The notes beneath the pieces were generated by a model. The model worked only from the letters and a program-made list of their open reading frames with translations, searched no databases and had not been told where the DNA came from. Below are positions 1 through 32,157 of a stretch of DNA of 32,157 nucleotides, in pieces (position 1 is the first letter of the stretch; each line of letters begins with the position of its first letter). The DNA is taken from positions 1 through 32,157 of the forward strand of contig WFWG01000412.1 in assembly GCA_015491235.1 (NCBI GenBank), given 5' to 3'. Source of the DNA: Ardenticatenaceae bacterium. Its GTDB lineage: Bacteria > Chloroflexota > Anaerolineae > Ardenticatenales > Ardenticatenaceae. The translations under genes were made by a program, and so were the position numbers.

Positions 1-151
1 CCCGCCCACCCAACAAGGAAAAATTGTGGAGAACTGGGGCAGCGGAGCCGCCCCAGTTCTCCACAATTTCTTCATCTTACGGCGGCGCCGAGCCATATCT
101 CTGCTCACGCCGCTGGAATGGCACGCCGTCGTCCCACGTTTTCAGTTGGTA
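1..151 (-). mobile_element. MITE-like repeat, copy C, truncated by window edge
   Basis: Read on the minus strand, this stretch starts with TACCAACTG (plus 143-151), one mismatch from the TACCAATTG end of the copies at 16492, 18229 and 25506. It continues with a block closely matching the interior of copy A (around 16536-16675): a GACGGCGTGCCATTC segment, a CGGCGCCGCCG palindrome, a GATGAAG segment, the long hairpin and a TTGGGTGGGC segment. The other end lies outside the window, so the second inverted repeat and target duplication cannot be seen. The base triplet outside the visible end, in element orientation, is TCA, which fits the TNA target seen at the other copies. It lies 43 bp past the stop codon of the diguanylate cyclase gene and points the same way as that gene. 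Confidence 0.75.
21..69 (-). terminator. Hairpin terminator inside MITE copy C
   Basis: Arms 21-40 and 50-69 pair perfectly over 20 bp (AAATTGTGGAGAACTGGGGC and its complement). Inside, two further pairs form after an A-C mismatch, leaving a 3-base loop. On the minus strand the hairpin is followed by five T residues and CC, the form of an intrinsic terminator for the diguanylate cyclase gene ending at 195. The stem is much longer than a normal terminator and belongs to the repeat. Confidence 0.65.
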
Positions 152-15933: not shown

Positions 15934-16491
15934 ATGATGTCCATCAAGCCGGACCACTGGATTCGCAAGATGGCACTGGAGGAGGGCATGATCGAACCCT
16001 TCGTGGACCGACAGGTGCGCGAGGGGGTCATCAGCTACGGCCTGAGTTCCTTCGGCTACGACATCCGCATTGCGGACGAGTTTTTGATTTTCACCCCGAA
16101 TCCCTACAATACCGTCGTGGACCCTAAGGCCATTGACAAGCGGGCCTTCACCCGCTTTCAGGGGGATGTGTGTATCATTCCGCCCAACTCGTATGCCTTG
16201 GGGCGCTCGGTGGAGTACTTCCGCATCCCGCGCAACGTGATCTGCGTGGTCGTGGGCAAGAGCACCTACGCCCGCTCGGGCATCATCGTCAACGTGACGC
16301 CCGGCGAGCCAGGCTGGGAGGGCCACTGGACCATCGAAATCAGCAACGCCACGCCCCTTCCGGCCAAAATTTACGCCAACGAGGGCATCGCCCAGGTGCT
16401 CTTCTTCGAGGGCGAGGAGCCCGAAGTTTCGTACGCGGACAAGCAGGGCAAGTACCAGGCCCAGCGTGGCATCACACTGCCGAAACTGTAA
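15934..16491 (+). CDS. dcd: dCTP deaminase
   Basis: Dcd deaminates dCTP to dUTP, feeding dTMP synthesis. The 185-residue length is normal. The family motifs are clear: GKSTYARSG (108-116), the [11 protein letters not shown] loop, and catalytic Glu135 in TIEISN, then [13 protein letters not shown] and the C-terminal [13 protein letters not shown] segment that closes over the nucleotide. The last feature also occurs in bifunctional dCTP deaminase/dUTPases, so extra dUTPase activity cannot be excluded. ATG 15934 (or 15937) follows GAGGAG. The stop codon TAA (16489-16491) is the left target duplication of MITE copy A, so the element sits directly against the coding sequence. Confidence 0.95.
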
Positions 16492-16732
16492 TACCAATTG
16501 CTTTCTCGAACACCATGTTTCAATCCTGGTGTTCCCCTGAAAATGTGGAGCGACGGCGTGCCATTCTAGCGGCTTGAGCAGAGGTGCGGCTCGGCGCCGC
16601 CGTGAGATGAAGAAATTGTGGAGAAGTGGGGCGGCAAAGCCGCCCCACTTCTCCACAATTTTTCCTTATTGGGTGGGCTGGCGGCGCCGGGCCATTCCGG
16701 TGAATACATGGCACTTGTAGACCCAATTGGTA
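16492..16732 (+). mobile_element. MITE-like element A, 241 bp, complete
   Basis: Inverted ends TACCAATTG (16492-16500) and CAATTGGTA (16724-16732) are flanked by TAA on both sides (16489-16491, 16733-16735), a 3-bp target duplication. The left TAA is the dcd stop codon. No protein is encoded. The outer 25 and 17 bp equal the 42-bp relic at 25427-25468; the 199 bp between (16517-16715) hold the long hairpin and CGGCGCCG blocks shared with copy C. A 3-bp TNA duplication fits elements moved by an IS5-type transposase, but none is in the window. The right end stops 20 bp before the next start codon. Confidence 0.8.
16613..16661 (+). terminator. Perfect 23-bp hairpin terminator inside MITE A
   Basis: Arms 16613-16635 and 16639-16661 pair over 23 bp without mismatch around an AAA loop. 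Five T residues (16659-16663) end the structure on the plus strand. It lies about 120 nt past the dcd stop and should terminate dcd transcription, separating it from the sugar dehydrogenase gene. Confidence 0.7.
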
Positions 16733-16752
16733 TAACGTTGGAGGAAAACACG

Positions 16753-18213: not shown

Positions 18214-18228
18214 TCCCCTTCCCTCTAA

Positions 18229-18464
18229 TACCAATTGGACGTGGAAATGGCATGAGGTCACGTACTCCTTCGGAGACTCTGAGGCGAGCACATGAACATG
18301 TGCGGCGCCGCACCACCTCATTCCGGGGGGCGTGGGGGGTGTCCCCCCCAGCAGGGCGCAGCGTGCTGCTGCGCCCCTACATCTTTCCCCTTTTGGATGG
18401 GTGGGCGGGATGGCGGCGCCGCACCCATTCTGTGAGCAGGTGACGTTACCAAACGCAATTGGTA
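18229..18464 (+). mobile_element. MITE-like element B, 236 bp, complete
   Basis: Ends TACCAATTG (18229-18237) and CAATTGGTA (18456-18464) are flanked by TAA on both sides (18226-18228, 18465-18467). The left TAA is in frame with the sugar dehydrogenase stop at 18211. Inside are a TGCGGCGCCGCA palindrome (18301-18312), a six-G/six-C hairpin (18334-18348), a 9-bp GGGCGCAGC hairpin with a GTGCT loop (18354-18376), a TTTCCCCTTTT stretch and a second GGCGGCGCCGC block. The outer parts match B' (25506-25639) closely, but B' lacks the central hairpin module. The element fills most of the 388-bp gap before the mutase gene. Confidence 0.8.
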
Positions 18465-18468
18465 TAAG

Positions 18469-25426: not shown

Positions 25427-25468
25427 CACCAATTGCTTTCTCGAACACCATTGTAGACCCAATTGGTA
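25427..25468 (+). mobile_element. MITE relic A', 42 bp
   Basis: CACCAATTG at the left (one change from TACCAATTG) and CAATTGGTA at the right enclose sequence equal to the first 25 and last 17 bp of element A joined directly. The flanking triplets are TAT and ATC, so no clear target duplication remains. It is either the empty form of A or an internal deletion of it. Unlike the longer copies, it does not follow a gene in its own orientation. Confidence 0.65.
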
Positions 25469-25505
25469 ATCACCGGTGCTTGGGGTTGGAGACGTCCACA
25501 ACTCA

Positions 25506-25639
25506 TACCAATTGCGTTTGGTAACGTCTCCTGCTCACAGAAGGGGTGCGGCGCCGCCATCCCGCCCATGTTCATGTGCTCGCCTCCCAGGTCTCCGAAG
25601 GAGTATGTGACTTCATGCCATTTTCACGCCCAATTGGTA
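25506..25639 (-). mobile_element. MITE-like element B', 134 bp, complete
   Basis: Ends TACCAATTG (25506-25514) and CAATTGGTA (25631-25639) are flanked by TCA on the plus strand at 25503-25505 and 25640-25642. On the minus strand the latter is TGA, the stop codon of the wzz-like gene. On the minus strand B' matches B: the same GGCATGA, TCCTTCGGAGA, GGCGAGCACATGAACATG, GGCGGGATGGCGGCGCCGCA and GTGAGCAGG blocks in the same order. The hairpin module between AACATG and GGCGGGATGG in B is missing. No protein is encoded. Confidence 0.8.
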
Positions 25640-26356
25640 TCACCTCCGGAAGGGCAGGCGCCAGCGCCGCTCCCGGGGAATTTCGGCCAGCACTGGCGCC
25701 CCCAGCAGGTGACGGGCCTCGTCGCGGGAGCGCACGCTGTCGTCCAGGTAATCCCAGGTGAAGGCGATGACGAGGGCGGCCACCAGCGCAATCAGCAGGC
25801 GCAGCGGCAGGTCCAGCTTCTGTCGCAGGCTTGGCCCCACGGGAAACGGGCCATAGTACCCAATCAGGTCCACCCGAACCCGTTGTCCGCCCCCGAAGGG
25901 CAGAAAACGGTCGGCCTCCTCGCGCAGCGTCTGGACCACGGCTGTACCAATGGCACCGAGTTGGTCGGGGTTTCCCCAGGTAATCCTCACTGTGAGAATG
26001 CGGTGCTGCCGGTCAGCGGAGATGGCGCCAGCCAGCGCGGCAGGGGGGACGCGCGCCCCTTCTGGCAGGCGGGCGTTCACCGCCTCGGCAAAGGCCACTT
26101 CGCTCACAATGATGGTGAGGTCGTCCGCGATGTACTCGCTGGCCTGGGCGGCTGCCAGGCTGGGATCCGTCTCAAGGGGCTGCTCGCTGTCCAGGAATGG
26201 TTCCACGTTGACGATCAGCCGCACCACGAACTGGTACGCCGGCGCTGGCGGTGAGGAAGTCAGCAAGCTCAGGAAGAGGACCAGCACCGGCAATCCCACC
26301 AGAACCCACCAGCGACGGCGTAGAACGCCCAAATACGCGCGCAACTCCATAATCAT
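25640..26356 (-). CDS. Wzz-type polysaccharide chain-length determinant protein
   Basis: The 238-residue protein has the Wzz layout: a short cytoplasmic start (MELRAYLGVLRRRWWVL), helix 1 (about 17-35), an extracytoplasmic domain of about 150 residues, a Pro-containing region before helix 2 (about 186-204), and a basic cytoplasmic tail. The tail has no Walker motifs or Tyr cluster, so it is not a fused BY-kinase. It probably controls chain length or export of a surface polysaccharide together with the glycosyltransferase upstream, whose stop overlaps ATG 26356 as ATGA. A second ATG at 26350 has better ribosome-site spacing. Its TGA stop is the target duplication of MITE B'. Confidence 0.8.
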   Translation of the reverse strand: MIMELRAYLGVLRRRWWVLVGLPVLVLFLSLLTSSPPAPAYQFVVRLIVNVEPFLDSEQPLETDPSLAAAQASEYIADDLTIIVSEVAFAEAVNARLPEGARVPPAALAGAISADRQHRILTVRITWGNPDQLGAIGTAVVQTLREEADRFLPFGGGQRVRVDLIGYYGPFPVGPSLRQKLDLPLRLLIALVAALVIAFTWDYLDDSVRSRDEARHLLGAPVLAEIPRERRWRLPFRR

Positions 26357-32118: not shown

Positions 32119-32157
32119 AAATTGTGTAGGACTGGGGCGGCTTCGCCGCCCCAGTCC
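32119..32157 (-). terminator. Third long hairpin of the repeat family, cut by the window edge
   Basis: AAATTGTGTAGGACTGGGGC plus GGC (32119-32141), a TTC loop, and the first 13 bases of the returning arm (32145-32157) form a perfect stem as far as visible. On the minus strand the complete structure would be followed by five T residues (complement of 32117-32121). It should therefore end transcription of a minus-strand gene to the right of the window, before glpX. The flanking MITE blocks seen in copies A and C are absent on the visible side. Confidence 0.6.

Follow-up and report, generated by a model that had tools for sequence, protein, structure and literature searches.

Template switching between hairpin arms as a probable source of RNA-like covariation in a dispersed bacterial repeat

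Covariation between the two sides of a stem is the usual proof of selection on RNA structure. Template switching, however, has been proposed to create and maintain RNA hairpins (Monttinen and Loytynoja 2022, PMC8794818). When a polymerase switches template within a pair of short inverted repeats, the arms are homogenised and the spacer is inverted, and flips of a GAA spacer to TTC are among the reported cases (Abraham and Hazkani-Covo 2021, PMC8604942). In E. coli quasipalindrome reporters, a 4-bp asymmetry is removed via template switching (Klaric, Perr and Lovett 2020, PMC7202029). We regard the hairpin family described here, which is carried by a dispersed repeat of an Ardenticatenaceae bacterium, as a good natural example of this known process and not as evidence for an RNA.

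The window, that is, the whole stretch of 32,157 nucleotides analysed, is the complete contig C412 of an assembly of 414 contigs and 3.8 Mb. Many contigs of this assembly terminate inside the hairpin family, and the assembly breaks at such repeats. The best hits of one protein point to a probable origin in Chloroflexota. The features of the window are collected in Table 1. The central hairpin is carried by an element with the traits of IS630/Tc1-type MITEs, namely TACCAATTG terminal inverted repeats, TA at the ends, many copies and the lack of a gene. This element has a TIR-like motif at its ends, is 82-90% identical to other copies in the genome, and is flanked by a dCTP-deaminase-like gene and a glucose/sorbosone-dehydrogenase-like gene. 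The single DDE_3 transposase gene found, on contig C357, was rejected as its partner, being without TACCAATTG ends. The genome is filled by a large MITE-like family, and the mosaic siblings of the window (18228-18468, 25427-25470 and 25504-25641) mix four kinds of ends with different interiors.

Table 1. Hairpins, MITE-like element and related elements in the window
Feature	Coordinates	Strand	Remarks
Whole MITE-like element	16491..16735	+	~245 bp; ends TACCAATTGC... and ...CAATTGGTA; hairpin central; gene-less
Hairpin, 5' arm	16613..16635	+	position 14 = G
Triloop AAA	16636..16638	+	GAA or TTC in most copies
Hairpin, 3' arm	16639..16661	+	100% complementary to 5' arm
Second hairpin	21..69	-	22/23 pairs; A41/C49 mismatch; loop GGA (TCC in element orientation)
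Third hairpin, truncated by contig end	32119..32157	+	5' arm and 13 nt of 3' arm; position 9 T, position 12 G
Remains of same-kind MITE, truncated by contig start	1..151	-	88% complementary to 16537-16681
Sibling mosaic element	18228..18468	+	same end type, different interior, without member of hairpin family
Internal-deletion derivative	25427..25470	+	~43 bp; left end of one type fused to right end of another
Sibling mosaic element without hairpin	25504..25641	+	

A preliminary description of the window had reported a 23-bp stem at 16613-16661, and this stem is indeed perfect and closed by a 3-nt AAA loop. Folded as single-stranded DNA, the hairpin has a z score of -12.9. The base changes described among the three copies are confirmed as well: stem position 14 is G-C at 16613-16661 and C-G in the other two copies; position 12 is A-T in the first two copies and G-C at the right edge, where the pairing was verified; and position 9 of the right-edge copy, read on the 5' arm, has changed from G to T. 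The 3' arm of the right-edge copy is readable for positions 23 to 11 only, and the continuation predicted after 32157, TACACAATTT, lies beyond the contig end. The matching partner is carried in 4/4 of the position 9 variants L008, L014, L041 and L058. The statement that all three stems stay paired is true of the perfect stem at 16613-16661, but the stem at 21-69 contains an A·C mismatch at 41/49 (position 21). Similarly, the term MITE hairpin suits the first two copies but not the right-edge copy, which has no recognisable MITE body on its readable side. The hairpin at 21-69, inside its partial element, follows the 3' end of a gene for a GAF/GGDEF protein; a gene for a glpX-like fructose-bisphosphatase has the hairpin at 32119-32157 on its upstream side.

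Four kinds of query, namely the element, single arms, the core by itself and a covariance model, were run against the genome and yielded several dozen hairpins together with truncated ones. The mid-stem sequence divides them into two subfamilies, A (GGAGAACT) and B (GGCGTGCA). The analysed set, which leaves out palindromes at contig starts, a single chimera and hairpins of deviating length, consists of 47 complete hairpins (31 A and 16 B). Position at a contig start makes an assembly artefact possible for the A/B chimera L021 and for two fold-back palindromes, L019 and L042, and these were set aside on that ground. Hairpins read at the edge of a contig may be incorrect; a stricter subset keeps the 39 copies that lie 60 bp or more from any contig end. 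A search with the outer arm only, which was used to check whether the core-based search had missed symmetric inner changes, found among copies with 0-1 mismatch no intact hairpin with such a change and truncated ones only. The hairpin had no exact match when GTDB contigs were scanned for it.

Several irregular copies were also seen. L019 (C355:1-210) is a perfect inverted repeat with ~104 nt per arm around the hairpin that extends past the element into the flanks, and stems either from an extensive fold-back or from faulty assembly. L021 (C154:4-52), which lies at a contig start, joins a 5' arm of type B to a 3' arm of type A, and is either a recombinant or a misassembly. Eight copies (L049, L050, L051, L055, L057, L060, L065 and L083) are one-armed, the second arm having been lost with a junction at GGCGG-type repeats, which is the pattern expected of slippage at hairpins.

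The two arms of the hairpin agree more closely than would be expected from adjacent DNA of equal age. At positions 4-15 of the 47 copies, 27 of 524 cells are symmetric departures from the subfamily consensus and only 3 are mismatches, whereas the left-hand element DNA of nine A copies, the half on which body divergence was measured, is 9.6% off consensus. A body divergence of ~10% would predict roughly 90 mismatches at these positions. In the stricter subset of 39 copies, 3 unpaired cells were found at positions 4-15 as against ~78 expected, and 22 symmetric ones as against 1.3 expected. Because many changes are shared by descent among related copies, cells are not independent events and the independent events are far fewer; the 17 distinct symmetric base states, A/B subfamily differences included, are the fairer count. 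At positions 8-15, 247 of 248 cells are paired in subfamily A and 128 of 128 in subfamily B. When the letters of the 3' arm are exchanged at random between copies, the paired cells number 215 +/- 2.5 and 120.6 +/- 1.6, respectively, and hence this pairing is not due to chance. In 30 copies aligned gap-free, positions 5-15 contain 59 two-sided changes and 0 one-sided ones, and the covariation score of this alignment is 0.268 compared with 0.076 +/- 0.010 in shuffles, a value never reached in 500 shuffles. The loop-proximal positions 16-23 behave differently, with 17 mismatches and 0 symmetric changes in 376 cells of the 47 copies. The mismatches thus cluster near the loop (17 inner versus 3 outer; p = 4e-10 if copies were independent). 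By type, A·C mismatches (16) are more frequent overall than G·U ones (7). Unpaired drift in other copies, which the preliminary description had named as counting against its view, does exist in part, both in these 17 of 376 cells and in the one-armed or truncated copies.

The centre of the hairpin varies in orientation. Relative to the element flanks, the loop is GAA in 14 and TTC in 15 of the confidently oriented copies, and the counts are 13 and 13 once oriented copies nearer than 60 bp to a contig end are set aside. These near-equal numbers against fixed flanks indicate that the centre turns over while the flanks stay. Arm length also changes on both sides at once: both arms are 27 nt long in C103:7740-7796, lengthened by the same GGAG repeat, and both are 21 nt long in C209:709-753. 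It is very unlikely that such matched indels arose independently in the two arms. The core often contains GCGAAGC. The GC-GAA-GC centre of the present hairpin is the d(GCGAAGC) motif of unusually stable DNA mini-hairpins, and this centre may help the single strand to fold.

The covariance model also detected similar multi-copy hairpins with unrelated outer arms in other genomes of the same class, although their shared core is partly a search effect, since this model is biased towards paired hairpins centred on GGCGGC. The hairpins L245-L284 (G035, G068, G017, G080 and G104) have GGCGGC-centred stems and GAA/TTC-type loops and often lie next to a second hairpin. The unrelated family in G035 was searched with a single arm, pairing not being demanded. 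Of the 666 cells in its 37 arm pairs, 18 are mismatches; the pairs display five distinct symmetric states, and the loops of 20 sampled copies are gaa in 9 and ttc in 11. These symmetric states and both loop orientations indicate that symmetrisation and loop flips are not unique to the present element. However, the G035 mismatches are divided into 10 outer and 8 inner ones, and so the loop-proximal clustering is not repeated. For this reason our case does not rest on that clustering. Mismatches near the loop fit fold-back priming but are confounded by the CpG-rich core; with related copies and the even distribution in G035 also in mind, they were demoted from strong support for such priming.

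We consider it probable, at about two chances in three, that the arms are complementary through replication template switching at the DNA level and that transposition spreads the resulting versions. A palindrome that becomes single-stranded during replication would fold back, and the nascent strand would be templated by the opposite arm before returning to its proper template. By an intramolecular switch one arm would be overwritten to suit its partner, so that a lone mutation or a small indel becomes a paired one, and an intermolecular switch would flip the loop. Transposition would then spread each symmetrised version as a subfamily. The copies carry many different paired arm sequences, flipped loops and symmetric length changes, and intermediates are missing; as the cause, we infer replication template switching rather than another route of arm copying. 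It counts against this reading that no switch event was seen and that neither a parent-child pair nor an orthologous locus was found, the MITE body being absent, with no orthologous insertion, from 59/59 relatives searched.

The preliminary description had left the choice between selection on RNA structure and arm correction at the DNA level, the latter by cruciform-linked gene conversion. Arm correction at the DNA level is supported in outline, RNA selection is not. A cruciform or hairpin could be extruded in resting DNA, its arms equalised by mismatch repair or arm-to-arm gene conversion, with no template switch by a polymerase, and its loop flipped by cruciform resolution. This process accounts for paired arms, symmetric indels and loop flips alike, would be aided by the frequent GCGAAGC core, and could give much the same picture as template switching, so that the data do not separate the two. 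However, it offers no obvious reason for mismatches to survive mainly near the loop, and the literature usually attributes short arms to replication switching (PMC8604942, PMC7202029). We therefore regard cruciform repair as unlikely and replication template switching as the better fit.

Still less probable is an RNA hairpin selected as a bidirectional terminator or as a guard of mRNA 3' ends, with compensatory mutations fixed in it. A consensus scan finds 16616-16658 to be terminator-like, with a GC-rich stem and a T-run on both strands, which is possibly a side effect of the hairpin. Separate hairpins of this genome, at L144:480-500 and L145:489-510, have the same GGGGCGGC core as the present family, are followed by T-rich runs and look like ordinary intrinsic terminators, as the RNA explanation would favour. 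However, an Rfam scan of the window gave no family match, and in a rough ORF survey the copies were faced by 41 gene 3' ends and 29 gene 5' ends, 5 copies being placed between divergent genes. These counts show no clear preference for gene 3' ends and give no clear sign of a general terminator role. DNA copying is favoured over RNA selection because loop orientation is random at about 50:50, arm lengths change symmetrically, the 30 aligned copies show no one-sided intermediate at positions 5-15, and wobble is not in excess, A·C mismatches outnumbering G·U ones. Selection of a single-stranded DNA hairpin needed for element mobility, as proposed for REPINs, is the most doubtful of these explanations. 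REPIN stems commonly show compensatory changes (PMC3116915), but the short terminal repeats adjoining TA suggest that a transposase acting on double strands moves the element, the hairpin is missing from sibling elements that have the same ends, and the search of the DDE_3 family gave no partner transposase, its one gene having no matching ends.

If template switching is responsible, a freely evolving bacterial repeat can acquire strong RNA-like covariation that is mainly mutational in origin, with loop flips and missing one-sided intermediates as practical tests that separate mutational from selected covariation in bacterial repeats; we hold the odds on this wider view to be about even. The paired 'compensatory' changes of this hairpin family should not be taken as proof of a working RNA, and caution is needed in RNA discovery where genomes are repeat-rich. 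With its many copies, the present family is a natural test set for the idea that RNA conservation can be imitated by template switching.

Like IS630/Tc1-type bacterial MITEs, the element is short (~245 bp), gene-less and multi-copy, with TA-flanked terminal repeats; unlike them, it has mosaic ends and no autonomous partner was found among DDE_3 genes. We call it MITE-like. It resembles REPINs and REP elements (PMC3116915) in being a short dispersed bacterial palindrome with compensatory stem changes, but here the hairpin lies within a ~245-bp element with terminal repeats. As in the hairpins of PMC8794818, compensatory changes would arise in one step and loop inversion is the strongest footprint. 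However, rRNA loops are conserved and their inversions rare, whereas the loop orientations here are close to 50:50. The changes also resemble those in the systems of PMC8604942 and PMC7202029, in which arms are made identical, the loop is inverted and small asymmetric indels are symmetrised or removed. In contrast to those systems, the same changes are displayed here, without strain pairs, by dozens of copies of one repeat within one bacterial genome.
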